Below, piece by piece: positions 93-12,654 of a DNA stretch of 28,218 nt. Origin of the DNA: a virus. The position numbers and the translations under genes are program-made. The notes under the pieces were generated by a model. That model saw only the letters and a program-made list of their open reading frames with translations, was not told the origin of the DNA and did not search any database. The stretch covers positions 1 to 28,218 of IMG/VR virus record IMGVR_UViG_3300030329_002504. One strand, 5' to 3'. How positions within the stretch are numbered: the stretch's first letter is position 1; every line of letters starts with the position of its first letter.

Positions 93-204
93 CGCAGACC
101 ACGAAGCCGAAATGCGGCACATGGACTACATGGGGTTTGAGCATGAGGACGATTATTGCAACGAGTGTGCGAACTTTGGGTGTACGTGTGAGGAGGCGGA
201 ATGA
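85..204 (+). CDS. small Cys-rich hypothetical protein (39 aa)
   Basis: ATG 85 to TGA 202-204 encodes 39 residues. It overlaps the methyltransferase end by 8 bases and the next gene by 4 (ATGA). The N-terminal half is acidic and rich in His and Met. The C-terminal half has a compact cluster, CNECANFGCTC, with four cysteines in 11 residues, which could bind one zinc ion together with nearby histidines. No family is recognised. Support for a real gene is the overlap with real genes on both sides and the GGAG-type site (AAGGAG, 71-76) at suitable spacing. Function is unknown; a small regulatory or host-takeover protein is possible but is inference. Confidence 0.5.
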   Translation: MTDADHEAEMRHMDYMGFEHEDDYCNECANFGCTCEEAE

Positions 205-413
205 AACCTGAACCCACGCAACCCCTCACCCTCACCATCAACGGCAGCGAGGAGGAGTTGCGGCACTACTTAAAGTCAACCCATTACCACAGCATCCTGT
301 GGAACTTGGAGGGTCAGTGCCGGAATAAATTAAAGCACGGGCATGATTTTGAGAATGCCGATGAGGTGTTGAGGTGGGTGCGAAGTTTTATGATCAACTT
401 GGAGGAAGAATGA
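201..413 (+). CDS. conserved small phage protein (70 aa)
   Basis: This 70-residue protein starts at ATG 201, overlapping the previous stop by 4 bases, with GAGGAGG at 190-196 close upstream. Its central pattern (YHSILWNLEGQCRNKLKHG) resembles a small protein found widely in phages, where a 'YkSvLWdLDqhLRnqlKyG' block follows a short beta-strand region and a charged helix follows it. Here the N-terminus is the predicted strand (LTLTINGSEEEL) and the C-terminus a helix (DEVLRWVRSFMINLEEE). The family has no established function that I know of. It usually sits among replication genes, as here. The next gene begins at ATG 410, overlapping its TGA by 4 bases. Confidence 0.65.
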   Translation: MKPEPTQPLTLTINGSEEELRHYLKSTHYHSILWNLEGQCRNKLKHGHDFENADEVLRWVRSFMINLEEE

Positions 414-532
414 AAAAGCGGGAACCTTGGGAGAACTATAACCTCGCCACGGAGGTAGGGGGAATAATCATAGCCTTGTCACCACTGGCTTTTGCCGTGC
501 TGTGGATTTTAAGGGGGTGCGCCAGTGCCTAA
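410..532 (+). CDS. small single-span membrane protein (40 aa)
   Basis: ATG 410 to TAA 530-532 encodes 40 residues, with GGAGGAAG just upstream inside the previous gene. The N-terminus is charged (MKKREPWENYNLATE). Residues 17-34 form one hydrophobic helix (VGGIIIALSPLAFAVLWI), and the short tail ends in RGCASA. The one cysteine comes after the hydrophobic segment, so the helix looks like a membrane anchor and not a clear lipoprotein signal. Its end overlaps the following nuclease gene (GTG 525) by 8 bases. No family is recognised. Small early membrane proteins of phages often act on host envelope or exclusion functions, but nothing here shows that. Confidence 0.5.
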   Translation: MKKREPWENYNLATEVGGIIIALSPLAFAVLWILRGCASA

Positions 533-869
533 CTCACGAGCCAAGGGCAAGCGCCGGGAGCGGGAGCTGGCCCGCCTGTTTACGGACGAGGGTTACCCTG
601 CGAAGCGTGGTGGATTCATGCAGGTCAGGGCCGGGGCCAGCGAGGGCGCGGATGTCTTATGTGACTCCCTCCCCTGGCTGCATGTTGAGGCGAAGGGGCA
701 TAAAACTTTTATGGGGGCCAAGCTGCGGGCCGCCATCGAGCAGGCCGAGCGTGACCGCAAGGTCAACACGCTGGCATCCGTGTGGCACAAGGAGGATCAC
801 TCCCCCTGGTACGTCACCATGGAGGCACATGACCTGTTCCGAATTATTCGCGGCGAGTTTTTAACCTAA
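525..869 (+). CDS. PD-(D/E)XK endonuclease, Holliday junction resolvase-like
   Basis: This 114-residue protein is in the size range of small phage and archaeal-type resolvases. The N-terminal helix KGKRRERELARLF holds the conserved Glu (E12/E14). It is followed by a Gly-rich strand region, then D43 (GADV) and E55-A-K57 (HVEAKGHK), which form the PD-(D/E)XK metal site. A helix with Q73 (AIEQAERD) and the strand PWYVTM complete the fold. In the family these enzymes cut branched DNA such as four-way junctions and may resolve replication intermediates before packaging. The start is GTG 525, the first codon that gives the full conserved N-terminus, and it overlaps the previous gene by 8 bases. A general VRR-NUC-like nuclease is the main alternative. 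Confidence 0.75.
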   Translation: MPNSRAKGKRRERELARLFTDEGYPAKRGGFMQVRAGASEGADVLCDSLPWLHVEAKGHKTFMGAKLRAAIEQAERDRKVNTLASVWHKEDHSPWYVTMEAHDLFRIIRGEFLT

Positions 870-887
870 ACCAAAGAAAGGAAACCC

Positions 888-1502
888 ATGGCAATAACAG
901 TAATGGGTGCCAACGAAGGCACCATGCAACGACAACTCCCCCCCGCAGAGAACCTACCGGCACGGTGTGTGCAGATTGTGGACCTCGGCACACAGGAGGA
1001 GGAATGGAGCGGGGAGAAGTCCCTGAAACGTAAAATACGGCTCACCTGGGAGCTGCCCACGGTGGAGTTTACCGGGCAGGAGGGGGATACTTGGAACCCC
1101 ATTATCTCCAAGGAATACACGGCAAGCCTCCACGAGAAGGCCACGCTTCGCAAGCACCTCGAAAGCTGGCGCGGCAAGCCCTTTAACAGCACGGAACTGG
1201 AAGGCTTCGATGTCGGCAAGCTGCTGGACAAGACCTGCATGGTACAGGTGGGGCATAAGCAAAAGGCCACCGGGGGTGAGTACGCCGTCATTGCCAATAT
1301 CTCCAAGCTGCCCAAGGGCATGGACTGCCCGGATCGCGTGCGGGACCTCATGGAATACTCCGCCGATGAAGGTGACACGGACACGTACCGCGGGTTCCCT
1401 GACTGGCTCAAGGAACGCATCGCAGCCAGCCCGGAGTTCGCGAAGGGCAAAAAAAAAGGAACCAACACCGACCACGAGCCAAGCGAGGCGGTGCCGTTCT
1501 AA
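888..1502 (+). CDS. single-stranded DNA-binding-like phage protein
   Basis: This 204-residue protein is preceded by an AAGAAAGGAAA site. The core follows a pattern shared by many phage replication proteins: an N-terminal strand (ARCVQIVDLG), KRKIRLTWELP, a block YTASLHEKATLRKHLESWRG, then ELEGFDVGKLLDKTCMVQV and the strand EYAVIANISKLPKG, consistent with an OB-fold. The tail is charged and disordered and ends in SEAVPF, resembling the acidic tip of bacterial SSB (DDDIPF) that recruits partner proteins. Its place just before an exonuclease and a primase/helicase pair supports a role in coating single-stranded DNA. The OB-fold assignment is inference. A stop-proximal hairpin (1507-1538) follows the gene. 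Confidence 0.6.
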   Translation: MAITVMGANEGTMQRQLPPAENLPARCVQIVDLGTQEEEWSGEKSLKRKIRLTWELPTVEFTGQEGDTWNPIISKEYTASLHEKATLRKHLESWRGKPFNSTELEGFDVGKLLDKTCMVQVGHKQKATGGEYAVIANISKLPKGMDCPDRVRDLMEYSADEGDTDTYRGFPDWLKERIAASPEFAKGKKKGTNTDHEPSEAVPF

Positions 1503-1506
1503 TAAC

Positions 1507-1538
1507 CCTCGGGGAGGATAAAAACAAACTCCCCGAGG
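1507..1538 (+). terminator. 10-bp hairpin after the SSB-like gene
   Basis: CCTCGGGGAG (1507-1516) and CTCCCCGAGG (1529-1538) form a perfect 10-bp stem with a 12-base A-rich loop, starting a few bases after the TAA at 1500-1502. Only a weak T-rich stretch follows (1541-1550), so it may be an inefficient terminator, an mRNA 3'-end stabiliser or an RNase site. Two smaller hairpins follow in the same 190-bp intergenic region, at 1551-1564 (GGGCC/GGCCC) and 1625-1650 (CCCCGG/CCGGGG, then TGCGCCTTGTTATTT). Confidence 0.5.
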
Positions 1539-1656
1539 ACTTTGATATTTGGGCCTAGCGGCCCACAGGGCGCAGGGGATTGCGGCGGTGCCTCGAATGT
1601 TCACTGGTTATTGTATCACCCCCGCCCCGGATAATCGCATAAAGCCGGGGTGCGCC

Positions 1657-1674
1657 TTGTTATTTAAATAACAA
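1657..1674. promoter_or_regulatory. 18-bp perfect palindrome upstream of exonuclease gene
   Basis: TTGTTATTTAAATAACAA is its own reverse complement over 18 bases. It is AT-only at the centre, in otherwise GC-rich DNA, and ends 18 bases before the ATG at 1693. The two-fold symmetry and position suit a dimeric repressor or activator site, or a melting region for a promoter. No clear -35/-10 pair is visible. The ribosome-binding site (GAGAGG, 1680-1685) lies just downstream. Confidence 0.4.
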
Positions 1675-1692
1675 TCAAGAGAGGATTTCAGG

Positions 1693-2508
1693 ATGTCTAT
1701 TATGATAAAAGGCCCGGATGTGGATGAACAAATCCGGGGACGCACCAGTGGCTCCGAGTCAGCGCACTGGTACAAGGGTGATGGCTCACCGGCGCACCGA
1801 AAGGAGAACGGCCAACCCACCACCCTGCGGGAGGCGCGGCGGGAGAAGAAGGAGACCGGCACGGGGCTGTTCCCGAGTGTCACCAGTGTCCTTAAAATTC
1901 TTGAAAAAGATGCCTTAAACCGCTGGAAAATAAGGGAAAATCTCAAGGCAGCGTGGGATCACCGGCAGTTCGCCGGCACCCTCGATGAGTGGCTGGACGT
2001 GGTCCTGGAACAGGCCAGCAGCAAGTCCAGGACTGCCGCGGGGTTCGGCACCCGGTTCCATGAGGCCGTGTGGCTGCACAATGTCGGCATGCCCGTGGTG
2101 TGTGATGATGAGGTGCGGCCTTATTTAAATAAGTACCTCGAATGGTTTAATGAACGGGTGGACAGGGTGCTGGAGGCGGAAAAGGTTATTGTCTCGGAGC
2201 TAGGCTTTGCCGGCACCCGTGATGCTGTTATGAAAATTGACGGGGAGGTGACGGTGGTGGACTTCAAGACCCAGACCGTGGACCCCAAGTATGGGGCAAG
2301 GGCGTGGCCCGAGCATGCCCTCCAGCTCGCCGCCTACCGCAGTGTGCGACGCCGCAAGGCGAGGTGCATGAATTTAATAATTAACTCCGTGGAGCCTTCC
2401 GCGCCACACGAGCATTGGTGGAAGGAGGAGGACCTAAAGAAGGCTTGGGCTGAATTTAAGTGGTGCCTCAAGTTGTGGCAGAGTCGAAAGAAATATAGGC
2501 CGAGGTAA
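1693..2508 (+). CDS. RecB/Cas4-like PD-(D/E)XK exonuclease
   Basis: This 271-residue protein shows the RecB-type nuclease core. H123 lies in RFHEAVW, D177 in GTRDAVMKID, D190-F-K192 in VVDFKTQ, and the QxxxY motif is Q211-LAA-Y215. These metal-binding and QxxxY residues are typical of the Cas4/RecB exonuclease branch, which degrades or resects DNA ends. The N-terminal 60 residues are charged and probably disordered. The C-terminus is a Lys/Arg/Trp-rich helix that could touch DNA. Beside an SSB-like protein, primase and helicase, a role in recombination-dependent replication or DNA-end processing is likely. No RecT/Erf-type annealing protein is recognised in the window. The start is ATG 1693 with GAGAGG eight bases upstream. 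Confidence 0.8.
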   Translation: MSIMIKGPDVDEQIRGRTSGSESAHWYKGDGSPAHRKENGQPTTLREARREKKETGTGLFPSVTSVLKILEKDALNRWKIRENLKAAWDHRQFAGTLDEWLDVVLEQASSKSRTAAGFGTRFHEAVWLHNVGMPVVCDDEVRPYLNKYLEWFNERVDRVLEAEKVIVSELGFAGTRDAVMKIDGEVTVVDFKTQTVDPKYGARAWPEHALQLAAYRSVRRRKARCMNLIINSVEPSAPHEHWWKEEDLKKAWAEFKWCLKLWQSRKKYRPR

Positions 2509-2511
2509 AGG

Positions 2512-2697
2512 ATGGAAGTTCTCACAGAGCAGGAACCTCCCGAGCCGGGGATGGTGCTGGTGAAGTACACAAGGGACGGGTACATCGTTCGATGCTGGCA
2601 CCAGCCCGACACGGTGCCGGACCGGAAGGCGTTGGGGGCAATTATTAGAAGCGAAGTTTTCAGGAGGGAAAAGGATGGGGAGCAAACAGACGACTGA
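2512..2697 (+). CDS. hypothetical protein (61 aa)
   Basis: This small acidic protein starts 3 bases after the exonuclease stop and overlaps the primase start by 23 bases, which supports it as a coupled operon gene. The N-terminus (EPPEPGMVLVKYTRDGYIVRCWHQPD) suggests a small beta domain. The C-terminus (KALGAIIRSEVFRREKD) suggests a helix. I recognise no family or catalytic motif. Shine-Dalgarno support is modest (GAGG and AAAGG just upstream). Confidence 0.5.
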   Translation: MEVLTEQEPPEPGMVLVKYTRDGYIVRCWHQPDTVPDRKALGAIIRSEVFRREKDGEQTDD

Positions 2698-3655
2698 GGA
2701 GGTGTTGGGGGCCGTGGATTGGCTCAACGACTGGGAGGGGAACGCGACGTGTCCAGGGCAGGATCTCCACTCCCATCGCACTGGCCCACGGGATTGCCGG
2801 GTGTACCTCGACAAGGTTCCCACCATTTATTGTGTACACCAGTCCTGCCTCGGGGAAGTGGAGAAGGCCAACCGACAGTTGCGTAAGGTTCTCTGCAACC
2901 AGGACACAGGGAGCCTTACTTTTAAGGGGAGCCAATTAGCGGGTGGCTTTATTCCAGTCACCAAGGCCCACTACAGCCCAAAGGATCGCCGGGAGTATCT
3001 TCGGCGCAAGTCCAGGGAGCGCCAGCTCAAGTCGGCCGGGCGCAAGCAACTGGAACGGATCCTGAATGACCCGGTTTACCAGTGGGAGTATGACCAGATT
3101 CTGGCTGACTCCCCACTGGCCCCCGGCCATGAACCCATTGAGGATTGGCACCTCTTTCTGGGGCTGTTTGAGGGAATGGAGGGCAGTCTTTGGTGCGGCG
3201 ATGTCACGGACTCGGGACAGGAACATCATTCGGAGAACTTTAAGCCCACCGACGAGTGGTTGCTGTCCCCGGAGCCTCCCGGTGCCTTTACGTGCAGCGC
3301 CCTTTTTGCGCCGGGGACAACATCCCGGCGCAACGCAAACGTGACGAGCCGGCCCTATCTGGTCATGGAGAGCGACAAGCTCACCAAGGGGCAGATGGGG
3401 GCCGTTTTACGGTGGTTCAATGTCGGCATGCACTGGCCGCTCCGGGCCATTATCGACACCGGCGGGAAGAGCCTGCACGGGTGGATGGACATGCCACCCC
3501 AGGAGTGGCTGCCGGAGTTGCAAATCATTGTTGAGGCCATGGATATGGACCCCGCCATGCTCAAGCCTTCCCAACCCGTGCGCCTTCCCGGTGTGCCACG
3601 CAACAACAAATTTCAACGCCTCATCTACTATGCGCCACGCCATCAATCCCGCTGA
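2675..3655 (+). CDS. DNA primase, zinc-finger-like N-terminus and AEP-type catalytic core
   Basis: The protein has 326 residues, with AGGAGGG upstream of ATG 2675. Residues 26-58 carry Cys/His ligands (C26, H32, C41, C53, H55, C58 in PTIYCVHQSC) resembling a primase zinc finger. A charged linker rich in Arg/Lys follows. The C-terminal third matches an archaeo-eukaryotic primase core: YLVMESD (E232, D234) as motif I, D261 in IIDTGG, the SLH motif with H268 (GGKSLHGW), and R303 in RLPGVPR near the end. Such proteins make primers at phage forks. It is followed directly by its likely helicase partner, which overlaps it by 26 bases, a split version of the fused primase-helicases of other phages. 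The exact AEP subfamily is uncertain. Confidence 0.7.
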   Translation: MGSKQTTEEVLGAVDWLNDWEGNATCPGQDLHSHRTGPRDCRVYLDKVPTIYCVHQSCLGEVEKANRQLRKVLCNQDTGSLTFKGSQLAGGFIPVTKAHYSPKDRREYLRRKSRERQLKSAGRKQLERILNDPVYQWEYDQILADSPLAPGHEPIEDWHLFLGLFEGMEGSLWCGDVTDSGQEHHSENFKPTDEWLLSPEPPGAFTCSALFAPGTTSRRNANVTSRPYLVMESDKLTKGQMGAVLRWFNVGMHWPLRAIIDTGGKSLHGWMDMPPQEWLPELQIIVEAMDMDPAMLKPSQPVRLPGVPRNNKFQRLIYYAPRHQSR

Positions 3656-4640
3656 TTTTCTGCTAGGAGCATCCCTCCTGCCGCCCATCAAGGCCGCCAA
3701 CGAACTCACCCACACCGACCCCATCCTGCCCCCGGAACTCATCCATGGGGTGCTGCACCAGGGTAGCAAGATGATTATGGGCGGTGCCAGTAAGGGCCGT
3801 AAAACGTGGATGCTTATGGACTTGGCCATCTGTGTGTCCGAGGGGCTGCACTGGTGGGGTTTTCCCACAACTCAAACACCAGTCTTGTACCTCAATTTGG
3901 AGATTCAGGAGCCTTTTGCAGCCAAAAGACTGAACTCACTCAAGGCCAGCCGGGAGATTCAGGACCTACCCAATCTCAAGTTGTGGAACCTGCGCGGCTA
4001 CGCCGCCCCACTCGAAGAGTTGACGCCAAAGATTACCGAGCAACTCACCCACCACAATGTCGGTCTGCTCATCCTGGACCCACTCTACAAGGTCCTCGGG
4101 GACACCGAGGAGAACGCCAACACCGACATGGCTCTGCTCCTGAACAACCTTGAGAGCATCGCCGTGCAACACGGTTGCGCCGTGGTTTTTGCACATCATT
4201 TTCGCAAGGGTGGCCCCAGTGATGGGGCCGCCATGGATCGCATGAGTGGCGCCGGGGTGCTGGCCCGCGACCCTGACAGCATTGTCACAATGCAGGACCA
4301 CGAGGATGAGGATTGCGTGGTGGTGGACATGACCCTGCGCAATTTTCCCCCCATCAACCCTTTTGGGATGTCCTGGGAGTTCCCTGTTTTCAACCGAAAT
4401 GACGACATTGATACCAGTAAACTCCGCGGGAAGGGTGGGCAGAAGGCTAAAGTGTCAACCCAGCAAGTCGCCAATTTGATCCCGTTCAGGGATGGGGTGA
4501 CAAAAAAGGAGCTGGTGGGAAAGATCATGGATGACATGGGGGTGTGTGACAGGTCTGCCTACAGGTATGTCAAGGCCGCCCTGGACAAGGGTGACATCAA
4601 GATGTCGCCAGCCGGAGGCTGTTTGGTCCGTGGGGATTAG
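3630..4640 (+). CDS. RepA-like RecA-fold helicase/ATPase
   Basis: The protein has 336 residues from ATG 3630, overlapping the primase end by 26 bases. The phosphate-binding loop is GGASKGRKT (residues 51-59), with Arg in place of the last Gly of the usual GxxxxGK(S/T). Related phage AAA_25/RepA-like ATPases show comparable GGSKxxKTW loops. The segment VLYLNLEI follows, then Walker B GLLILDP with D150, and VVFAHHFRKG resembles the sensor region of hexameric RepA/DnaB-type helicases. The last ~60 residues (VTKKELVGKIMDD to YRYVKAALDKG) look like a winged helix for DNA binding. The likely job is the replicative helicase or loader working with the primase. The frame is open further upstream, but that part is antiparallel to no known family and overlaps the primase core. 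Confidence 0.75.
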   Translation: MRHAINPADFLLGASLLPPIKAANELTHTDPILPPELIHGVLHQGSKMIMGGASKGRKTWMLMDLAICVSEGLHWWGFPTTQTPVLYLNLEIQEPFAAKRLNSLKASREIQDLPNLKLWNLRGYAAPLEELTPKITEQLTHHNVGLLILDPLYKVLGDTEENANTDMALLLNNLESIAVQHGCAVVFAHHFRKGGPSDGAAMDRMSGAGVLARDPDSIVTMQDHEDEDCVVVDMTLRNFPPINPFGMSWEFPVFNRNDDIDTSKLRGKGGQKAKVSTQQVANLIPFRDGVTKKELVGKIMDDMGVCDRSAYRYVKAALDKGDIKMSPAGGCLVRGD

Positions 4641-4790
4641 GTTCTGTCAACATGCTGAAAACATGCTTCCATTTTGTCGCCATGTCTGTGTTTTGACAGC
4701 CCACATGGGACTAGTATCGTCCCGCGCCCCCGTGGGCGGGACTAGTCCCATGACAGTGGCATTTTTGTCATTTTGACAGTTGACAGAACC
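4640..4790. repeat. nested inverted repeats, candidate replication origin
   Basis: An outer 12-bp perfect inverted repeat, GGTTCTGTCAAC (4640-4651) and GTTGACAGAACC (4779-4790), encloses an inner perfect one, CATGGGACTAGT (4704-4715) and ACTAGTCCCATG (4741-4752). The innermost arm is CCCGC/GCGGG (4721-4725, 4736-4740). The left arm begins on the last base of the helicase stop codon. This opens the 438-bp stretch (4641-5078) that is the longest gene-free part of the window. Its position right after primase and helicase genes and its symmetry fit an origin or replication-initiator site. No flanking target duplication is visible. Confidence 0.5.
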
Positions 4791-4810
4791 CTTTAGGGTG
4801 TCGCTGTCAA
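4644..4810. repeat. TTGACAG heptamer cluster (iteron-like)
   Basis: TTGACAG or its complement CTGTCAA occurs five times: 4644-4650 (-), 4693-4699 (+), 4773-4779 (+), 4780-4786 (+, directly abutting the previous copy) and 4804-4810 (-). Shorter TGACA/TGTCA matches lie at 4751-4755, 4766-4770 and 4909-4913. Repeated short sites in both orientations are typical of initiator-binding iterons or repressor sites. TTGACA is also a -35 consensus, but none of the copies has a good -10 at 16-18 bases. Confidence 0.5.
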
Positions 4811-4873
4811 AATCGGCAAAAAATACCATGGGGTAAATAGGGGTGAAATGGTGGCTTCCAGGGTGGTCTTTGG

Positions 4874-4908
4874 CTTTTCTCACCTACCCTCAAGGTGGGT
4901 GAGAAAAG
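4874..4908. other. 15-bp hairpin in the non-coding region
   Basis: CTTTTCTCACCTACC (4874-4888) pairs with GGTGGGTGAGAAAAG (4894-4908) over 15 positions with one G-U pair and a 5-base loop CTCAA. No T-run follows on either strand, so a standard intrinsic terminator is unlikely. In this context it could be part of an origin (a single-strand initiation or primase start structure) or an mRNA-processing hairpin. Confidence 0.5.
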
Positions 4909-4968
4909 TGACAGGGCGGTGAAGGGCGGCAAGGTGGCCCCGCTGCCTCCAAGGATTGCCGGGGAGCA

Positions 4969-5097
4969 GTGTTAACACCTTGCCCAAAACCAAGAGTTGA
5001 CCCCTCAGTCCATTTCAGGGATGTTCAGCCTCAGTTGGTGTTAACACCCCAGATTGCGCTGTAGGGCGTTGGGGAGTCATGGCGGGTGTTTACACCC
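4969..5097. promoter_or_regulatory. three GTGTTWACAC palindromes, putative operators
   Basis: GTGTTAACAC is present at 4969-4978 and 5038-5047, the latter extended to the 12-base palindrome GGTGTTAACACC at 5037-5048. A third copy, GTGTTTACAC, lies at 5086-5095 inside the extended palindrome-like GGGTGTTTACACCC (5084-5097), which is inside the first codons of the gene starting at 5079. Three copies of one two-fold symmetric site around a gene start are typical of repressor operators or an autoregulated promoter. Confidence 0.5.
4997..5025 (+). promoter_or_regulatory. possible sigma70-type promoter for the 5079 operon
   Basis: TTGACC (4997-5002) is 5/6 to the -35 consensus. After a 17-base spacer comes GATGTT (5020-5025), only 3/6 to the -10. 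It lies between the palindromes at 4969 and 5037, so a repressor there could block it, which raises its plausibility. The weak -10 keeps confidence low. Confidence 0.3.
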
Positions 5098-5378
5098 TAC
5101 AGACATCAAAATGGCTTAGAGGGCCATTTACGGGCCAAAGAGAGGTACTTGTGGAGATTACAGGGACAAAGCAAAGGCTGCACACCTTCAAAATTGCCGC
5201 GGAGTGCTTTTTTTGCGGCCGCGCATACCTGGCCAATGTGCAGCGCCTCCCTTTGCCCCCGGATGGCCAGGAAAGTGCCAAAACGGATCACTGGGTGGCC
5301 CTGGTGCGACTTTCACAGGTTCAAAGAGTGGATCACGTCTGCCCGGCGTGCTGGAACGCAATTGAGGAGGAAATTTGA
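5079..5378 (+). CDS. hypothetical protein with paired CxxC motifs (99 aa)
   Basis: ATG 5079 is preceded by GGGGAG. The protein has two CxxC pairs, CFFCGR near residue 45 and CPACW near residue 89, spaced as in a treble-clef or ribbon-type zinc-binding domain with an insert of about 40 residues. The N-terminal part is a likely beta region (REVLVEITGTKQRLHTFKIAAE). No specific family is recognised. A nucleic-acid-binding or regulatory role is plausible because of the zinc-site pattern, and a palindromic operator-like site overlaps its start codon region (5084-5097), as in autoregulated genes. The next gene begins one base before its stop ends (TGATG). Confidence 0.5.
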   Translation: MAGVYTLQTSKWLRGPFTGQREVLVEITGTKQRLHTFKIAAECFFCGRAYLANVQRLPLPPDGQESAKTDHWVALVRLSQVQRVDHVCPACWNAIEEEI

Positions 5379-6034
5379 TGCCGTTATCTCAGTCGCAGGC
5401 GTCCAAGAATTTTCGGGAGAAGACTAAAAATGAGGGTGTTCTCCCATCTGGAACTGATGAGGATGGGAATATCATCATTGTCCAGCCCAAAAGGGGACTG
5501 GGGTCACGGATGGAGGGCCATAAATACGAGGCCATTGTGCGGGATCTAGCCGAGGGCCATACCATTCTCGATGTCGCTGAAAAGTACCAGGTTGGTTCAT
5601 CACTGGTTCAGTTGCTGCGCAAGCGCCATTCTGATATTTGCCCCGGTCATCGACAATCCATGGTGACTCGCATGGAGCAGATGCGTGAGCAGTTGTCTGA
5701 GTCCATGCAAAATGACTTAAAAAAAGGAAAAATGCCCCCAGGCGTGAAACCCGTTGCTTTCGGCATCGTCACTGACAAATACTTGGCCGAAACGGGCCAA
5801 AATGTGCAAAAACACGAGCATTTACACGCTGTTTTGCCCCAGGACGACGTGAAAACCGCACTTTCTGGACTCACAGGAGACAAACAGCCTCCTGAGCATA
5901 CGCAAAACACGGAGAAAACCGTCGAAATTGATGCAAATGTACAAGAAATGCACAAAAACGACACTCCAGGCGTTAGCGATAAAGGGGGGGAGGGGGGTCA
6001 TGGGCAGCCGCGGCCGGAAGCGGCGACGGATTAG
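5378..6034 (+). CDS. helix-turn-helix DNA-binding protein, possible small terminase
   Basis: ATG 5378 overlaps the previous TGA by one base and has a strong GAGGAGG site (5364-5370); a TTG at 5375 is less likely. The 218 residues start with a disordered, charged segment. Residues ~50-88 (IVRDLAEGHTILDVAEKYQV then VQLLRKRH) form a classic helix-turn-helix. A long helix follows (MEQMREQLSESMQNDLKKG), with the block PVAFGIVTDKYLAETGQ, seen in HTH proteins of phages and bacteria that resemble small terminases. The last ~75 residues are low-complexity and hydrophilic. It may recognise the packaging site, but it lies 1.8 kb before the large terminase, farther than usual, so a transcription regulator is a real alternative. 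Confidence 0.5.
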   Translation: MPLSQSQASKNFREKTKNEGVLPSGTDEDGNIIIVQPKRGLGSRMEGHKYEAIVRDLAEGHTILDVAEKYQVGSSLVQLLRKRHSDICPGHRQSMVTRMEQMREQLSESMQNDLKKGKMPPGVKPVAFGIVTDKYLAETGQNVQKHEHLHAVLPQDDVKTALSGLTGDKQPPEHTQNTEKTVEIDANVQEMHKNDTPGVSDKGGEGGHGQPRPEAATD

Positions 6035-6052
6035 CCCCCTGACATTTTTTTT
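5991..6052 (+). terminator. possible terminator with T8 run
   Basis: AGGGGG (5991-5996) can pair with CCCCCT (6035-6040), enclosing a second stem GCCGC/GCGGC (6007-6011, 6020-6024). GACA and eight T residues follow (6045-6052). The left half lies in the end of the HTH gene. The stem is short with a long internal loop, so this is a weak intrinsic-terminator candidate; the T8 run is the longest T tract I noticed near a gene junction here. Confidence 0.3.
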
Positions 6053-6061
6053 GACAATGGC

Positions 6062-6469
6062 ATGACCCCCGAGACTCACCTCCTCACCAAGCTGGACTTG
6101 TCTCGCCCTGAACTCCTCGCGTTGCGCCGTGGGAAGTTCCCGGAAGGCACCCATTGGGTGCGTGGTGACCGCTCCAAGGTTCTTTGGACAGATACTGGCC
6201 TAAACGCCCTTTCGGAGCTGACCGGGGTGGATAAGGAGGAGTTGGTGGCACCCTTGGACGCACCCACTGCCCTCAAGGGGGTGGTGATGTGGGCGAATTA
6301 CCCCAACAAAAGACTGGTGCAAGTGATGCCTGACGAGGGTGATGCGCCGATCCGGGTGAGGGTGAAGGACGCTTTGTTGTACGTGCCAGGGATGGCGATG
6401 GAGTACAGGAGAAATGGCGAAAGGGGATGGATGGAAGCCAAGCGACCCCGATCTCGCGGCCGGTTTTAG
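6062..6469 (+). CDS. hypothetical protein (135 aa)
   Basis: The N-terminal ~55 residues (TKLDLSRPELLALRRGKFPEGTHW, then LNALSELTG) look like a small winged or MerR/excisionase-like DNA-binding domain: a residue run that chooses a determinant, a 'W' strand, then a helix. The C-terminal half (GVVMWANYPNKRLVQVMPDE, VRVKDALLYVPGM) resembles a small beta-barrel. It ends in a basic tail (KRPRSRGRF). I do not recognise the family. The start lacks a good ribosome-binding site, so translation could depend on readthrough from upstream. The next gene starts inside its end (6414), with a 56-base overlap. Confidence 0.5.
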   Translation: MTPETHLLTKLDLSRPELLALRRGKFPEGTHWVRGDRSKVLWTDTGLNALSELTGVDKEELVAPLDAPTALKGVVMWANYPNKRLVQVMPDEGDAPIRVRVKDALLYVPGMAMEYRRNGERGWMEAKRPRSRGRF

Positions 6470-6638
6470 TGAGGCCCCGGAGGTTGGCTTGGGAGGTCAT
6501 GGTGATCCCGGTGGGATGACCATTAAGGAAATGAATGCCCGAATGGACAAGTGGTTGGCGGCTCGGGGGCAGAAGACTTGGGGTTTACGCAGCCAGATCA
6601 ATGCAGACTTGGCTGGTGAAAAGGGGGAGAACGAATGA
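6414..6638 (+). CDS. small hypothetical protein (74 aa)
   Basis: ATG 6414 is preceded by AGGAG at 6407-6411 and overlaps the preceding gene by 56 bases. The N-terminus is Gly/Pro/Asp-rich and probably unfolded. Residues 35-70 (MTIKEMNARMDKWLAARGQ, WGLRSQINADLAGE) are helical and could be a protein-protein or DNA-binding element. It ends with a 4-base overlap with the protease gene. No family is recognised. Confidence 0.45.
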   Translation: MAKGDGWKPSDPDLAAGFSEAPEVGLGGHGDPGGMTIKEMNARMDKWLAARGQKTWGLRSQINADLAGEKGENE

Positions 6639-7543
6639 AAAGAATCATTGGACTAACCATGGCGCTGGTGGGCTTTGCGGGCCTTGCGGCGGACAACATT
6701 GGGGACAACATTGGGGACTACCTGGCGAGCATTAGTGTGACGGTGCGGGCCGAGGGTGGCTACAACCGTGCGGAGGGTAGCGGGACGCTCTTCAAGCGCA
6801 TGGTGGATGGCAGGGAGGTGGTGTTTTGTCATACGGCGGCCCATGTCATTGCCCACACCCGATCCGTGAGGGACGAGATTGTGGATGGCAAGCCAGTGAA
6901 GGTGGTGGAGTTTGGGAGTCCGTTTTTGGTTCGCAAACTGCGCAACCCTGACACGGGGCGGATTGTGGGGGAGACCGTGGTGGCGGCCAAGGTGGTTCGC
7001 TATTCGGACGCGGAGACGGGGCATGATTTGGCTTTGTTGCGAGTGCTGGCGAAAGACTTCAAGGCACCCAATTCAGTCAAGTTTCTGTCAAGGGACGCCA
7101 AGCTGGTCCCACTGGGGACGCACCTGTGGGGTTGTGGTTCGTTGCTGGGGAGCGATGGTGCCAACAGTATCACAGATGGGGTACTGAGCCAGCATGGGCG
7201 CATTCTATTTCGCAGCACGGACTTTACCCAGGTCAGCACGGTGGCCTTTCCTGGTTCGTCCGGGGGTGGCAACTTTAATGATGCGGGGCAGTATGTGGGG
7301 ATGCTGGTGAGAGGCACCCGCACGCAGGGGTTCAACTTTCTGGTGCCGATCAAGAGGATGTGGGGTTATTATGAGAAGTCAGGAATGGCGTGGTGCATGG
7401 ACCCCAGTGTCAAAGTGACGGAGAAGGACATTTCCAAGACTCCCATTGAGGACACGGTGGGGACGCCGGGGAGTGGTCGTGGGGACGAGAAGAAGTACCC
7501 GTTTTTGATTCGGCGCATACCACTTGGGGGAGCCGGGAAATGA
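6635..7543 (+). CDS. secreted trypsin-like serine protease
   Basis: The 302-residue protein starts with a signal peptide (MKRIIGLTMALVGFAGLA, likely cut just after), followed by a duplicated GDNIGDNIGD. The chymotrypsin-fold triad is visible: H70 in CHTAAHVIA, D131 in GHDLALLRV, S209 in PGSSGGG (the GxSGG motif). Strand-like segments between them fit the S1/HtrA (DegP-like) group. No PDZ domain follows; the last ~60 residues are charged and Gly/Pro-rich. Export would place it in the periplasm or on the outside of a Gram-negative host. It is the third-last gene before the large terminase and overlaps both neighbours by 4 bases. Role is open: host envelope protein cleavage, lysis, or virion processing. 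Confidence 0.8.
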   Translation: MKRIIGLTMALVGFAGLAADNIGDNIGDYLASISVTVRAEGGYNRAEGSGTLFKRMVDGREVVFCHTAAHVIAHTRSVRDEIVDGKPVKVVEFGSPFLVRKLRNPDTGRIVGETVVAAKVVRYSDAETGHDLALLRVLAKDFKAPNSVKFLSRDAKLVPLGTHLWGCGSLLGSDGANSITDGVLSQHGRILFRSTDFTQVSTVAFPGSSGGGNFNDAGQYVGMLVRGTRTQGFNFLVPIKRMWGYYEKSGMAWCMDPSVKVTEKDISKTPIEDTVGTPGSGRGDEKKYPFLIRRIPLGGAGK

Positions 7544-7740
7544 AAACGACCTGGCGTGGAATGGCCCGCGCCGTGGTGGTTGGAGTATTGCTGGCATCAT
7601 TGTTGGCCAACTGGTCCCTGTGGGTGACTTTTAAAGTCTTCCGGGACCGTTGGTATGAGGCAATAGAGGCGGCGGAACTCAATGACTTGAACGGTGAAGG
7701 TGGGGCGTGGGTTTGGATTGAGCTGGAGCGTGATGAATAA
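7540..7740 (+). CDS. small membrane protein (66 aa)
   Basis: It overlaps the protease stop by 4 bases (ATGA). It has a basic N-terminus (MKTTWRGMAR), one hydrophobic helix at about residues 11-30 (AVVVGVLLASLLANWSLWV) and an acidic C-terminal half. This N-in, C-out single-span layout resembles small phage envelope proteins. Coupling to the secreted protease suggests they act together, for example as an anchor or partner, but that is inference. No family is recognised. Confidence 0.5.
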   Translation: MKTTWRGMARAVVVGVLLASLLANWSLWVTFKVFRDRWYEAIEAAELNDLNGEGGAWVWIELERDE

Positions 7741-7858
7741 TAGTATAAACAAGCCGGCCGGGAATAGAGGCATGGGAGAGCCATGCACGCGCTTTCATGC
7801 CCCTCACGGGGTTCTTTCTGGCGCAGTTGAACACCCGGTCGGCTTTTTCCCCTTATGA
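7733..7858 (+). CDS. 41-aa ORF bridging to the terminase gene
   Basis: ATG 7733 overlaps the previous stop by 8 bases and has GGAG at 7725-7728. Its TGA (7856-7858) overlaps the terminase ATG by 4 bases (ATGA). The peptide (MNNSINKPAGNRGMGEPC...) has no recognisable domain and runs through the branched RNA structure at 7751-7848. The terminase start has no ribosome-binding site of its own, so this ORF may serve mainly to couple translation into the terminase, like a leader peptide. Confidence 0.35.
   Translation: MNNSINKPAGNRGMGEPCTRFHAPHGVLSGAVEHPVGFFPL
7751..7848 (+). ncRNA. branched RNA structure in front of the terminase gene
   Basis: AAGCCGGCCGGG (7751-7762) pairs with CCCGGTCGGCTT (7834-7845) over 12 positions with one G-U. 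Two hairpins lie inside: GCATGG/CCATGC (7770-7775, 7781-7786, loop GAGAG) and CCCC/GGGG (7800-7803, 7808-7811). T residues 7844-7848 follow the closing stem, as in an intrinsic terminator. The result is a three-way-junction-like element ending 6 bases before the terminase ATG. It could be an attenuator, a translational control element, or a packaging-site sequence. Confidence 0.45.
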
Positions 7859-9510
7859 TCCTGTCCGCCCCCAAGACAGGTGATGAGTTGATTCAGGCGG
7901 TGTTGGACTGGCCGGTTTCCAGGGCCAGCGGCATGACACGGGACACCCTTGCGGAGGCGGTTAAGCGGCAGGGTGTGGACCGTGTTTATGAGGACGTTAA
8001 TTCGCTGTATCAGCGGATGATGCAGTCCAAGCTGGATCCCTTCAATGCCATCTGGGTGCCGGACCACTGGGAGGACGCGAAGCGGTTATTGGAGGAAAAT
8101 GATCGCCTTTTAATAGGTGGTGGCAACCGCTCCGGCAAATCAAAATTCTCAGCCTGGTACATCATGCATCTATTGGTTGAGAAGCCGGACAGTCGCGTGG
8201 CGTGTTTTAGCATGACCAGCCAGAGCAGTATTCGGGACCAGCAGCCGGCCTTGTGGGAGTTTATGCCGCAGCAGTGGCAGAAGGTGAAACGTGGCGCGGT
8301 TCAGAACGTGAAGTACAGCCAGAAGAATGGTTTCACGGACAACACCTTTATCTTACCCAATGGAAGCCAGTGTTTTTTTATGAACTACGCCCAGCAGCCG
8401 GACATTTTGGAAGGCATGGAGGCTGACCTGATTTGGTTTGATGAGTTGGTGCCATGGCACTGGGTGCAGACAGCGGAGTTTCGGTTGACGACCCGCAGGG
8501 CCAGCCGCGGGACGGGGAAGATGTTAATCTCGGCCACTCCCATTACGGGCTGGACGCCGGTGGTGAATGATTTTGTGGCGGGCTGCCGGGTGACCGAGAC
8601 CAAGCCCAGTCCGTTGTTGCCAGGCAAGAATGTGGCGGGGGTGGAGGAGGGCCGAATGCCCTACATGGCGGACGCTGTGAAACCGGGCAGTAAGGTGATC
8701 TGGTTTCATACTGCCATGAATCCGTGGCAGGACCCGGCTGAGTTTAAGCGCACCCTGAGTGGGGAATCCACGGTGCAGATCAAGATTCGTGCCTATGGTT
8801 GGTGCGAGAAGAGTACCGGCAATTGGTTTCCCAAGTTTGGCAAGGACCATATTTTAAAAGCGGAAGACATTCCCAAGGAAGGCACCAATTGGATGTGCGT
8901 GGATCCGGCGGGTAGCCGCAACTGGTCCATGCTGTGGCTGCGCGTGGACAAGGCGGGGCGGATGTATTTTTACCGGGAATGGCCGGACAAGGGAACGTAT
9001 GGGGAATGGGCGCTTCCAGGGGACAAGGTGGAGGGCCAAATGGGGCCGGCGCAAAAACCGGAAGGCCGCGGCATAACGGAGTACAAGGAATTGGTGCGGG
9101 AACTGGAAGGGGGCGAGGCCATTGAGGAGCGGCTGATTGACCCCCGTGCGGGTGGCACAGCCGCGGCGACAAAAACCGGCGGCCAGACATTGATTGATTT
9201 GTTGGGGGATGATCCGCAACCGATGTGGTTTGTCCCCGCGCCAGGGCTGTCTATTGAGCAGGGCATCGGCCAGATCAACGAGGCGCTGAACTATGACCCC
9301 GAGGAACCTCTGAGCGTGGTTAATGAGCCGAAACTTTACATTAGTGAGAAGTGCGGGAACCTGATTGATTGCATGCAGCACATTAGTAGCGCCGCCGGCG
9401 ACAAGAATAAGTTCAAGGACTTTGTGGACGTGGCCCGGTATGTCATCACCCATGAACCCTCTTATGTTGACTCAAGAACCTATGCGGCAGTTGGCGGCGG
9501 GAGCTACTAG
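7855..9510 (+). CDS. terL: terminase large subunit
   Basis: The 551-residue protein is the DNA-packaging motor. The ATPase domain has Walker A GGGNRSGKS (residues 88-96), Walker B DLIWFDE with catalytic D196-E197, and motif III SAT (226-228). The nuclease domain shows the RNase H-like acidic residues D350 (CVDPAGSRNW), D429 (LIDPRAGG) and D522/D525 (DFVDVARY). In the family it cuts concatemeric DNA and pumps it into the prohead through the portal. The length is typical. ATG 7855 lacks a ribosome-binding site but overlaps the stop of the 41-aa ORF, so coupled translation is likely. A later start at 7933 would still keep the domains but is no better supported. Confidence 0.9.
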   Translation: MILSAPKTGDELIQAVLDWPVSRASGMTRDTLAEAVKRQGVDRVYEDVNSLYQRMMQSKLDPFNAIWVPDHWEDAKRLLEENDRLLIGGGNRSGKSKFSAWYIMHLLVEKPDSRVACFSMTSQSSIRDQQPALWEFMPQQWQKVKRGAVQNVKYSQKNGFTDNTFILPNGSQCFFMNYAQQPDILEGMEADLIWFDELVPWHWVQTAEFRLTTRRASRGTGKMLISATPITGWTPVVNDFVAGCRVTETKPSPLLPGKNVAGVEEGRMPYMADAVKPGSKVIWFHTAMNPWQDPAEFKRTLSGESTVQIKIRAYGWCEKSTGNWFPKFGKDHILKAEDIPKEGTNWMCVDPAGSRNWSMLWLRVDKAGRMYFYREWPDKGTYGEWALPGDKVEGQMGPAQKPEGRGITEYKELVRELEGGEAIEERLIDPRAGGTAAATKTGGQTLIDLLGDDPQPMWFVPAPGLSIEQGIGQINEALNYDPEEPLSVVNEPKLYISEKCGNLIDCMQHISSAAGDKNKFKDFVDVARYVITHEPSYVDSRTYAAVGGGSY

Positions 9511-9679
9511 CTACCCCCCGCTGATGAGCCTGGCCCAAGCCGTGGAGGCTACCGGGCTGAACCGTAAGTACATCCAAAAGCTGCGCCGATGTGGTGTGGT
9601 AAAGGTGTATGAGTACCAAGGTGGTGGCCGGTATCGTTACCACCGTGACGACCTGTTTAAGCATGTGGGGCTGAAATGA
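9482..9679 (+). CDS. excisionase/MerR-type small HTH protein
   Basis: The conserved part is a compact winged helix: SLAQAVEATGLNRKYIQKL as helix-turn-helix, RRCGVVKVYEYQGGG as strand and turn, and YRYHRDDLFKHVG as the wing and last helix. This is the HTH_17/excisionase pattern. The start is uncertain. ATG 9482 (65 aa) is listed; 9464 and 9452 lie further inside the terminase end, and 9524 gives the bare domain. None has a strong ribosome-binding site. Phages use such proteins as regulators or in recombination; with no integrase in the window, a regulatory or packaging-accessory role is more likely. The next gene overlaps its stop by 4 bases. Confidence 0.55.
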   Translation: MRQLAAGATSYPPLMSLAQAVEATGLNRKYIQKLRRCGVVKVYEYQGGGRYRYHRDDLFKHVGLK

Positions 9680-9888
9680 ATGACCTTTCGATTTTTGGTT
9701 TTCAAGGCACCAACGTCCTCTGGGACGCGGTGATGGAGCAGTTGAAGATTTCAGAGGAGGTGGAGGTGTCACAGGCCATTGACATTCACCCCCAGGGTGA
9801 GCATCGGGCCTATCTGGCGGGCAAGGCTGCCGCCTTGATGGAGTTTCGTGAGCATCTGGAATCCCTGCGGCGGCAGGCGCGGGATTGA
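9676..9888 (+). CDS. small hypothetical protein (70 aa)
   Basis: ATG 9676 overlaps the previous TGA by 4 bases. The C-terminal ~30 residues (EHRAYLAGKAAALMEFREHLESLRRQARD) form a long amphipathic helix, and the N-terminus is mixed. Similar helix patterns (HxxYLxGKAAALxxxRExL) occur in small proteins near phage terminase or capsid genes; no function is established. It ends with a one-base overlap with the following gene (TGATG). Confidence 0.5.
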   Translation: MNDLSIFGFQGTNVLWDAVMEQLKISEEVEVSQAIDIHPQGEHRAYLAGKAAALMEFREHLESLRRQARD

Positions 9889-10061
9889 TGTTGATTAATA
9901 AAAAAGCTGTCCGGGAACTGGCCTTGACGCAGGCCCACAATGGCCGGGACCGGGTGGGTGTCTCCTTCTTTTCAGCCATTGAGGCGGCAGTCAGGGAAGC
10001 CATTTCCCGCCGGGTAGAGCATCACGACAACAAGCGCGGCCGCCGCCGGACACTGGTTTAA
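9888..10061 (+). CDS. small histone-like DNA-binding protein (57 aa)
   Basis: ATG 9888 to TAA 10059-10061. The sequence begins MLINKKAVRELALTQ, continues RVGVSFFSAIEAAVREAISRRVE and ends in a basic tail with the RGRRRTL pattern. This follows the 'strand-linker-long helix-basic tail' plan of small archaeal-histone-fold-like proteins found in marine phages and bacteria (VSxxFxxALxxxVxxxIxxA...GRKTL). Such proteins are thought to bind DNA as dimers. It is the last gene before the 176-bp leader of the head operon. The match is by pattern only. Confidence 0.5.
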   Translation: MLINKKAVRELALTQAHNGRDRVGVSFFSAIEAAVREAISRRVEHHDNKRGRRRTLV

Positions 10062-10107
10062 TTCCAAAACTAAGCCCCTTAAAGGCCCCCTTAGTCCCTC
10101 TCCGTAT

Positions 10108-10132
10108 CCGCCCCCTTTTCTTGCGGGGTTTT
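10108..10132 (+). terminator. weak terminator-like hairpin before the head operon
   Basis: CCGC (10108-10111) and GCGG (10123-10126), or CCCC (10112-10115) and GGGG (10125-10128), form a short stem followed by TTTT at 10129-10132. It sits 47 bases after the last pre-head gene, at the natural boundary between transcription units, but the stem is short. Confidence 0.3.
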
Positions 10133-10148
10133 AATTCGCCTAACTATT

Positions 10149-10178
10149 GATGGCGAAGTGTTTCTTGGTGTTCGCATC
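10149..10178 (+). promoter_or_regulatory. leader hairpin upstream of scaffold gene
   Basis: GATGGCGAA (10149-10157) pairs with TTCGCATC (10171-10178), 8 bp with one bulged G and a 13-base loop; GGCGA/TCGCC is a competing pairing. It belongs to the 176-bp non-coding leader 10062-10237. The leader also holds CTAAG/CTTAG arms (10070-10094) and an A7 run just before the scaffold ATG. No clear sigma70 promoter is visible. A leader mRNA or late promoter is expected here. Confidence 0.3.
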
Positions 10179-10237
10179 GCCTTTCAAAGCTCAAACCATG
10201 GGAGACTGGGCCGTCTTGCAGGTCCTTTAAAAAAAGC

Positions 10238-11257
10238 ATGCCAGAAGCAAAAGCCGGGCAAACGGAACAAGCCCAAGACCAAGCCGTGGAAGTGACGAAT
10301 GCCGAGTCTTTGGTCGGCATTTTGAAGACACAAATGGAACAAGAGGAAGTTCCGCAGGAGACGCCCGAGGAACCTGTCGCAGAGGCGGAAGGGGACGAGG
10401 GCAATCAACCAGAGGTTGATCTTTCCCAGAAAGAGGACGAGCAAGCAGAGGCTGAACCGGCTGCCGAGGCGGAGGGGGAACCCGAGGCCAAGGCACCCGA
10501 GGGGGACGAGTACGAGTTACCCCGCGGGGTTCAGAAGCGGATCGACAAGCTCACTGCTCAGAAGAAGGCGCTGGCCGAGGAGAAGGACAAGGCCATCTCT
10601 GATTTAAGGCAGGAGATTGATGAACTCAGGGCCAGTAAGGAAAGCCCTGATCCCAAGGTGGACGACCCCTCGAACCCTTACCGGCACCTCCAGGACCTGG
10701 AGACAATCCGGCGCGAGGAACTCAACGCGGAAACCGTTCTGGACTGGTGCGACGACCACCCCGATGGGGCGGTTGTCCATGAGGACGGGAACGAGCGCGA
10801 ATACTCCGTAGAGGACATCCGAGAGATACGCAAACGCGCTCGGAAAGCCCTCAACCGGCAACTGCCTGAACAACGCAAGTGGGTGGAGGACTACGCGGCC
10901 ACTGAGCCGTATGTCGAAGCCAACTTCCCGTGGTGGGCCGACAAGGCAACCGCGGAATATCAGGCGGCACGCCAGATTATGAAGGAGTTCCCCGAGGTGA
11001 TGAGGTTCCCCGGCTACAAGGTGAGCGTGGGGGACATCGTGGAGGGGATGAAGGTTCGGATGGCGCGACAGGAGGAAAAGGCAAAGGGACGCAAGAAGGC
11101 GGCCCCTCCCAAGGCGCCGGAACAACCCGTGGCCCCGGTGGCGGAACCCGCCCCGGTTAATGAAACGGCCGCCCGTTCAGCCGCTGCCCGGCAAAGGTTC
11201 TCGGAAACTGGAACAATAGACGACCTCGCAAATGTAATGGCGGCGGCAATGGATTAA
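10238..11257 (+). CDS. scaffolding-like protein
   Basis: The 339-residue protein lies directly upstream of the major capsid gene, the usual place for a scaffold. Residues 1-90 are highly acidic and Glu/Ala/Gln-rich. A coiled coil follows at ~95-130 (RIDKLTAQKKALAEEKDKAISDL within it). The middle is helical and aromatic-rich (QRKWVEDYAATEPYVEANFPWW), then a Lys/Ala/Pro linker and a C-terminal helix (GTIDDLANVMAAAMD). Scaffold proteins organise capsid subunits and leave or are degraded before packaging. This acidic, coiled-coil, helix-ended plan is typical, though sequences in this class are very divergent. The ribosome-binding site is weak and lies near the A7 run. Confidence 0.65.
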   Translation: MPEAKAGQTEQAQDQAVEVTNAESLVGILKTQMEQEEVPQETPEEPVAEAEGDEGNQPEVDLSQKEDEQAEAEPAAEAEGEPEAKAPEGDEYELPRGVQKRIDKLTAQKKALAEEKDKAISDLRQEIDELRASKESPDPKVDDPSNPYRHLQDLETIRREELNAETVLDWCDDHPDGAVVHEDGNEREYSVEDIREIRKRARKALNRQLPEQRKWVEDYAATEPYVEANFPWWADKATAEYQAARQIMKEFPEVMRFPGYKVSVGDIVEGMKVRMARQEEKAKGRKKAAPPKAPEQPVAPVAEPAPVNETAARSAAARQRFSETGTIDDLANVMAAAMD

Positions 11258-11270
11258 AGCCCCGCCACCG

Positions 11271-11277
11271 AAGGAGG
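11271..11277 (+). promoter_or_regulatory. strong ribosome-binding site of the capsid gene
   Basis: AAGGAGG is an almost full match to the anti-Shine-Dalgarno sequence, 7 bases before the capsid ATG at 11285. It is the strongest such site near a head gene here and fits the high copy number of the capsid protein. Confidence 0.75.
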
Positions 11278-11284
11278 AAATAAC

Positions 11285-12283
11285 ATGGCTGCTCTCCTAG
11301 AGAGGCAACAAATTGGAAAACGTGAGGACCTCGCGGATCTCGTGGCACAAGTGGATGCCCACGATCTCCCGGTGACCTCACTGGCCAAGAAAGGATCGAA
11401 ACCCGGCAACTCTGTCATGTCCTGGCAAGCGACTTCGCTTTCCAGCGCGCAGAACAGCCCAGTGGTCGATGGAACCGACGTATCGAGCTACGAGTCGAAC
11501 TCCCGTTCGCTGTTGCAGAACTACATTCAAATCTTCCGCCGCGCCGTGCGGGTCAGCCCCTTGTCGATTGACATCAGCAATGTTGCCGGTGTCCGCGACG
11601 AGCTGGCCTTCCAAGTGGCCGCGAAGATTGTGGAGCTAAAACGTGATATGGAGCTGACCTTCTGTTCCACCGCCGGCGCGGTTGCCGATGATGGTTCAAA
11701 CGGTTACGCGACCCGCGGCTTGGCTAAGTGGATCGAGGTGAGTGGAAGCAAGGACTCCGTTCTTGAGCCGCCCGATGCGTTTTGTACGCCCAGCGGCAGC
11801 ATCGAAACCACGGCGACTACAGCCACGTTGACGGACACCCATGTGCAGGACGTGCTTTCGAGCATCTTCGCGCAAACGGGTTCCATCAGCCAGTACGACA
11901 TGCCGATTGGACGCACGCTGAAACGCGCCTTCACGGACCGCCTGACCGGCACCCGTGCGGTGAGTGACACCGGCAGTGCCACGGCAGCGGCCACGCAGGT
12001 TCGCATGTTCTCGCCGCAAAACGGCAAGACCATCTCGCTGCGCTGCGATGTCTTCGAGGGTGATTTCGGCACCGTCCGATTGCACCCCTCGAACTGGTTG
12101 GACGCCCAGACCGATGGCCTGGTGTTGAACATGGCGGACGTTGAAATCCGTTACGGCAAACTGCCGGAGGTGAAGGAACTGCCTGACAGTGGCGGTGGCC
12201 CCATCCGGTTGGTGGAAGCCTACGCGGCCCTCGTGATGAAGGCCGGTGGTTTGAACCATGGCCGTTTCGACCTCGCCAGCTAA
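11285..12283 (+). CDS. major capsid protein, SU10-type
   Basis: The 332-residue protein follows the scaffold-like gene and has the best ribosome-binding site of the head region. The N-terminal part (REDLADLVAQVDAHDLPVTSLAKKG) and the segment RRAVRVSPLSIDISNVAG followed by DELAFQVAAKIVELKRDMEL resemble the SU10 major capsid family (formerly DUF5309), an HK97-fold capsid found in kuravirus-like and marine phages. Later strands (ISLRCDVFEGDFGTVRL, LNMADVEIRYG) fit the P-domain and A-domain of that fold. It forms the icosahedral shell. Family assignment is from sequence pattern. The following gene starts on the last base of its stop codon. Confidence 0.8.
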   Translation: MAALLERQQIGKREDLADLVAQVDAHDLPVTSLAKKGSKPGNSVMSWQATSLSSAQNSPVVDGTDVSSYESNSRSLLQNYIQIFRRAVRVSPLSIDISNVAGVRDELAFQVAAKIVELKRDMELTFCSTAGAVADDGSNGYATRGLAKWIEVSGSKDSVLEPPDAFCTPSGSIETTATTATLTDTHVQDVLSSIFAQTGSISQYDMPIGRTLKRAFTDRLTGTRAVSDTGSATAAATQVRMFSPQNGKTISLRCDVFEGDFGTVRLHPSNWLDAQTDGLVLNMADVEIRYGKLPEVKELPDSGGGPIRLVEAYAALVMKAGGLNHGRFDLAS

Positions 12284-12654
12284 TGTTGGAGGCGATTCTC
12301 AACTCGCTCCCGACAGATGTCCGCGCCAAAGCGGCCGGGCATCTGCGGGAGCGGGTCTTTAACGATTTAAACAGTGTCCGGGGCAACGCCAAGGCGATTG
12401 CCATGGACAACAATTCGGCCGAGTACCGCCACATGGATGGTCTGGGCCAAATGACCGCCAGTATTGATTCCAAGTCCTACCACTACTGGAACGCCCGCGA
12501 ACCCGGCTGCTGGAATGACAAGAAATTTGTGCGGGAATATCTGAGGGACAACCCCGAGGCGCGGGTTAACACCCGGTCCGGTAAAATCCAGGTGGGATAT
12601 GATGGTGATGGGTTTATTCGCCACCGTGTGGGCCGAAAGGTGAAGGTGTATTGA
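12283..12654 (+). CDS. conserved head-region protein (123 aa)
   Basis: ATG 12283 shares its first base with the capsid stop. The centre (HMDGLGQMTASIDSKSYHYW) and the stretch GCWNDKKFVREYLRDNPEARV resemble a small protein seen next to capsid or portal genes of other podovirus-like phages (a 'DGxGQ...ID...YhxW...CWxDkxFxxexLRDNPexRV' pattern). Its N-terminus is helical. Function is unknown; position suggests a minor head, decoration or assembly protein. It ends one base into the portal start (TGATG). Confidence 0.6.
   Translation: MLEAILNSLPTDVRAKAAGHLRERVFNDLNSVRGNAKAIAMDNNSAEYRHMDGLGQMTASIDSKSYHYWNAREPGCWNDKKFVREYLRDNPEARVNTRSGKIQVGYDGDGFIRHRVGRKVKVY

Follow-up and report, generated by a model that had tools for sequence, protein, structure and literature searches.

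The locus described here consists of a primase gene, a helicase gene, and, directly behind them, a gene-free gap filled with short repeats. All three lie within a window of 28,218 bases, i.e., the whole stretch of DNA analyzed, which is the complete, linear IMG/VR virus record IMGVR_UViG_3300030329_002504. The record is probably a fragment because one gene runs past the right end of the window. Its source is an uncultured phage, probably marine. The host is probably verrucomicrobial, as suggested by the best helicase relatives among bacterial genomes, nearly all of which are Verrucomicrobia. A blastn search of the window against annotated phages gave no match, an Rfam scan of the window returned chance matches only, and a tRNA search of the window found none. 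Single-protein scans of virus contigs recovered only a twin contig from another metagenome (L004), which is 99.86% identical over window positions 103 to 9637, with 13 differences that are all clustered at 105 to 194 and 1244 to 1256.

The terminase, portal, scaffold, and capsid proteins (7855 to 14777) are 23 to 33% identical to those of C75C1, a poorly characterized phage whose replication genes have no match to those of the window, and the tail region (17875 to 18783) encodes a very glycine-rich protein. An SSB-like or unknown protein (888 to 1502; PHROG 862) is shared with 20 marine contigs at 41 to 46% identity and with two further contigs at 34%. Every other window gene tested was absent from these contigs, which suggests module exchange.

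The gene at 2675 to 3655 (plus strand) appears to encode an AEP-type primase. Its product matches PHROG 2597 ("DNA primase") with an E value of 6e-4 and is 27% identical over 94% to the primase of Akkermansia phage Moulinsart. In the annotated-phage relatives examined, primase and helicase form one fused gene; in the window, the two frames are separate and overlap at 3630 to 3655, with the helicase in the +1 frame. An assembly error is unlikely because the twin contig has the same arrangement, and the overlap may reflect translational coupling or a programmed frameshift. The helicase gene (3630 to 4640, plus strand), which likely starts at ATG 3630, encodes a RepA-like, putatively hexameric helicase with a Pfam AAA_25 match (E value of 1e-30). 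Its predicted structure (pLDDT of 88) has RSF1010 RepA (1NLF) as the top PDB match in Foldseek, with an E value of 3.6e-13 and a target TM score of 0.74. In two predictions, the last 72 residues (4422 to 4637, plus strand) fold into a winged helix, with the order H-H-H-beta-beta, a pLDDT of 86 to 88, and GVCDRSAYRYVKAAL as the third helix. Foldseek searches with this C-terminal domain hit chiefly winged-helix proteins, with the weak E values expected for 72 residues.

The helicase stop codon TAG occupies 4638 to 4640. The first-pass annotation had placed a gene-free stretch at 4640 to 4914, right after the primase and helicase genes; the location is correct, but base 4640 is the final base of the stop codon and the gap is longer: the CxxC gene that follows has its most likely start at GTG 5151, preceded by GAGAGG, which puts the gap at 4641 to about 5150. 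Repeat searches recovered the five copies of TTGACAG/CTGTCAA that had been reported, at 4644 (minus), 4693 to 4699 (plus), 4773 (plus), 4780 (plus), and 4804 (minus), such that five of the seven copies in the 28,218-bp window fall inside 167 bp. No other 7-mer is clustered as densely in the window; 100 dinucleotide shuffles gave no more than 4 copies, and shuffles of positions 4640 to 5150 contained a mean of 0.09 copies (maximum, 2). The three additional TGACA-type matches are likewise there, as TGACA/TGTCA cores at 4751, 4766, and 4909. These correspond to a degenerate iteron TGACA at 4751 to 4755 (plus), a degenerate iteron TGTCA at 4766 to 4770 (minus) that together with 4774 gives TGTCA-TTT-TGACA, and a distal iteron TGACAG at 4909 to 4914 (plus).

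Both perfect 12-bp inverted repeats of the first-pass annotation were found, and two such repeats within the stretch are unexpected by shuffling (P = 0.001). The outer one pairs 4640 to 4651, an arm that contains the iteron CTGTCAA at 4644 to 4650, with 4779 to 4790. The inner one pairs 4704 to 4715 with 4741 to 4752 and closes a large hairpin, CATGGGACTAGT..ACTAGTCCCATG (4704 to 4752), which folds as DNA with -20.4 kcal/mol (z = -5.4). A second hairpin, described as having a 15-bp stem, is present at 4874 to 4888/4894 to 4908, although 14 of its 15 pairs are Watson-Crick; folded as single-stranded DNA, it has a z score of -5.5, and the distal iteron follows it immediately.

Although the nested 12-bp repeats exist as described, the more telling symmetry is that of inverted iterons around CCCTTTAGGG. 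This key unit, TTTTGACAGTTGACAGAA-CCCTTTAGGG-TGTCGCTGTCAAAA (4771 to 4812), lies directly 3' of the helicase gene and was absent from the first-pass annotation. It comprises a tandem iteron pair as the left arm (4771 to 4788, plus), the core at 4789 to 4798, which occurs once in the window and has 40% A+T, and an inverted iteron as the right arm (4799 to 4812, minus). Opposed iteron sets thus stand on both sides of the core, and A+T-rich stretches lie beside it; one of these, at 4813 to 4848 (63% A+T versus about 43% around it), is a candidate melting site. The second half of the gap also contains three GTGTTWACACC palindromes (4969 to 4979, 5038 to 5048, and 5086 to 5096), which lie shortly before the CxxC gene. 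The exact sequence TGTTAACA is confined to these palindromes, with no other copy in the window, and they may be operators for some regulator or belong to a larger origin. Cumulative GC skew has no more than a slight local minimum at about 4.0 to 4.5 kb, which was given no evidential weight.

Because the twin contig is identical to the window throughout the gap, the only near relative carries no comparative information, and we therefore looked at distant helicase homologues. Relatives of the terminase were left out of this comparison because an origin is expected to travel with the helicase. The layout was found directly 3' of many helicase homologues, in genomes of Verrucomicrobia, in virus contigs from the environment, and in cultured phages of Gram-positive bacteria. 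For example, the helicase stop codon is followed by AGTCTCATAGTCTCATAT-CCCTTTAGGG-TATGAGACATGAGAC, AGTCCCAAGTCCCATAT-CCCTTTAGGG-TATGGGACTGGACT, and CTGCCAAAA-CCCTTTAGGG-TTTGGCAGTGGCAG at Verrucomicrobia loci L196, L203, and L207, respectively, and the arrangement is similar at L195, L200, and L212; the tandem pair has the same placement as in the window at L195, L196, L200, L203, and L207. The element also lies 3' of the helicase in virus contigs L291, L323, and L328; environmental and gut phages share this plan and carry a CCTTATATAG-type core, and in the isolate phages Javan535, BCJA1c, EFC-1, Diane, and Lugh the primase-helicase gene is followed directly by repeats. The comparison across relatives that the first-pass annotation had proposed shows that distant loci keep the layout and the core and that the iteron letters vary, so that the same core recurs between unrelated iterons. 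The same iteron-core-inverted-iteron element behind homologous helicases elsewhere supports the suggestion of a replication origin with iterons. Many of the loci L116 to L126, L137 to L194, and L357 to L361 have a second hairpin after the iterons, similar in position and variable in its stem letters. In several relatives this hairpin sits just before a RusA-like resolvase gene, and at L125 it is followed by CGGGACAG, matching the distal iteron of the window.

To quantify this recurrence, we clustered the helicases at 65% identity, which gave 66 clusters, and inspected the 260 bp after the stop codon, with 515 other gene ends from the same loci as controls. These counts, and the comparison of repeated k-mers given below, took the place of an automatic search for symmetrically flanked cores whose criteria were too stringent. 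An inverted-repeat score of at least 12 was reached by 16 of the 66 helicase clusters and 2 of the 515 control ends, and the scores as a whole differed between helicase ends and controls (Mann-Whitney P = 9e-19). A core motif was present in 24/66 clusters versus 8/515 control ends; the Fisher P value for this contrast is too favorable because part of the loci had already been seen when the list of motifs was made, whereas the inverted-repeat comparison is independent of that list. A good part of the clusters has neither feature, and no such element was found within 260 bp of the helicase in L199, L205, L279, L288, L296, and L300; the element is therefore frequent but not universal.

We also scanned 2.9 million virus contigs with a pattern derived from the window alone, TGACAG-core-CTGTCA, without using any protein information. 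The scan hit three contigs, namely the twin, L355, and L356. In L355, a RepA-like helicase about 25% identical to that of the window is encoded just upstream of the element, and eleven GCGTGACA iterons and a CCCTTTAGGG unit lie inside 381 bp of the helicase stop. L356 was rejected as a true element, as it has no helicase and the match lies inside a coding region, apparently by chance.

In a partial Mantel test corrected for AAA identity, the more alike the third (recognition) helices of the winged-helix domains, the more alike were the repeated 6-mers 3' of the helicase genes (r = 0.11, P = 0.0006; second run, P = 0.0015); the correlation is weak (r of about 0.1), and the loci are not fully independent. 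For pairs below 65% identity, the association held for the recognition helix (P of about 0.005) and was not significant for the rest of the winged-helix domain (P = 0.17). In an example picked after the fact, helices with [ST]RAT go with GTCTCA iterons in all four of their clusters, and, of 56 clusters, 5 have two or more copies of GTCTCA. This modest association points to the helicase itself, acting through its C-terminal domain, as probably the iteron reader, rather than the CxxC protein.

We consider it likely, on the sequence evidence, that a phage replication origin starts at the helicase stop codon and extends to about 4914, forming the end of a primase-helicase-origin module. This reading builds on the DNA anatomy, its position behind this helicase family, its recurrence in distant relatives, and the link between helix and iterons. 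Binding, opening, priming, and bidirectionality are steps that we infer from these observations and from better-known systems. As the helix-iteron association suggests, the winged-helix C terminus of the RepA-like helicase would bind the TTGACAG iterons on either side of CCCTTTAGGG. Two opposed helicase assemblies on the inverted iterons could then open the core and the A+T-rich flank, a step modeled on the symmetry of the unit and on SaPI Rep, and the helicases would unwind outwards in both directions. In what is the weakest step, the neighboring primase may prime the unwound strands, possibly using the two hairpins in the way that RepB' of RSF1010 uses ssiA/ssiB. Points that count against an origin include the relatives without such an element, a core with so little A+T, and iterons in both orientations, which would also suit an operator.

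An operator or promoter region, in which TTGACAG marks repressor or activator sites or -35 boxes for the downstream genes, would account for these orientations, and TTGACA is indeed the sigma-70 -35 hexamer. However, the single promoter-like match (4693 to 4720) compares with 1.2 expected in shuffles, and the element stays behind the helicase in relatives while the next gene varies (a RusA resolvase, another gene, or a hypothetical one). Since the third helix of the helicase C terminus also tracks the iterons, we regard a purely regulatory role as unlikely. Slightly more doubtful still is an autoregulated origin, at which the same sites would serve replication and transcription control and the helicase would repress or couple downstream transcription. 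Many iteron initiators autoregulate, and the 510-bp gap also contains the GTGTTWACACC palindromes just before the next gene, but the iterons lie behind rather than before the helicase gene and promoter evidence is absent.

The two strong hairpins could also be read as a transcription terminator or an RNA processing element after an early operon. Yet a T run follows neither hairpin, the T-rich 5' arm and A-rich 3' arm of the hairpin at 4874 to 4908 give the wrong polarity on either strand, a terminator scan picks neither hairpin, and the iterons and core would be left unexplained; in pRN1, moreover, the terminator is dispensable and the origin stem-loop is not (PMC4234260). This makes such an element very improbable. 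We give the least credence of all to a DNA packaging site (pac or cos) for the terminase. An HTH protein encoded just downstream of the gap (5375 to 6034) is possibly a small terminase, and terL lies at 7855, but in relatives the element remains linked to the helicase, and the gene that follows it is often that of a RusA-like resolvase rather than a terminase.

Returning to the origin reading, there is about an even chance that it extends to a widespread, as yet undescribed class of phage origins. In this class, RepA-type (RecA-fold) helicases would be self-loading initiators whose winged helix reads iterons behind their own gene, with the third helix setting the iteron letters and a shared core of the CCCTTTAGGG or CCTTATATAG type, among phages of Verrucomicrobia, Firmicutes, and environmental hosts. 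If so, the origin and its recognition sequence could be read just behind the helicase gene in any phage with such a helicase, which is of value because the origins of most uncultured phages are unknown. Initiator specificity could then be tested directly on the natural set of helix-iteron pairs, and RSF1010-type helicases could carry their own origin-recognition domain instead of relying on a separate RepC.

The first-pass annotation did not recognize the arrangement from a known origin family, but precedents exist in the iteron origins 3' of an initiator helicase in SaPI/PICI and SCCmec elements and in the stem-loop of pRN1. PICI provide an iteron origin directly 3' of the initiator helicase (PMC6092414), and SaPI Rep uses its C-terminal domain to bind iterons that immediately follow its own gene (PMC7581432), within a pri-rep-ori module (Ubeda et al. 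2007, as cited in PMC7581432). As in the window, these elements have primase and helicase genes with the origin immediately 3' (in the window, the iterons begin at 4644), two sets of short iterons flank a center, and iteron letters vary between members; the C-terminal iteron reading reported for SaPI Rep is what we propose for the window helicase. However, SaPI Rep is a DUF927 or D5/Primase_C protein, whereas the window helicase is an AAA_25, RecA-fold, RSF1010-RepA-like protein. SaPIs and PICIs are also satellites with a long A+T-rich stretch, whereas the window has its own terL, portal, scaffold, and capsid genes, the 10-bp CCCTTTAGGG core, and two extra hairpins. Similarly, the SCCmec helicase Cch2 binds, through its C-terminal domain, 5-nt iterons located immediately after its operon (PMC7581432), but Cch2 is a D5-type helicase that works with a polymerase-based primase and three direct repeats.

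RSF1010 oriV, as summarized in PMC4234260, shares the RepA helicase fold, a dedicated primase, and iterons with hairpins, and the two strong predicted hairpins of the window may be counterparts of ssiA/ssiB. According to the same summary, RSF1010 has a separate RepC; in the window, a winged helix is fused to the helicase, the repeats are 7 bp long, and no RepC-like family match was found among the ten proteins scanned from the first 9.5 kb of the fragmentary record. In pRN1, the gene for an AEP primase-helicase with a winged helix at its C terminus is followed directly by the origin; the single 100-nt stem-loop of this origin is conserved in structure but not in sequence, and the authors noticed stem-loops behind similar genes in some phages (PMC4234260). 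Unlike the window, pRN1 has an SF3 helicase and no iterons, so the window does not match an AEP-SF3-winged-helix origin with a stem-loop. The phage ori of Streptococcus thermophilus phage Sfi21, a 302-bp noncoding element in the replication module (Foley 1998, as cited in PMC6356513), is alike by this description only, and its replication proteins may be of another type. The open-access literature held no description of such an origin in phages with a RepA-type primase-helicase, which is weak evidence of novelty. By analogy with SaPI/PICI, SCCmec, and pRN1, the overall plan is a known one; what appears to be new is its pairing with phage helicases of the RecA-fold RepA type, together with the shared core and the link between recognition helix and iterons.
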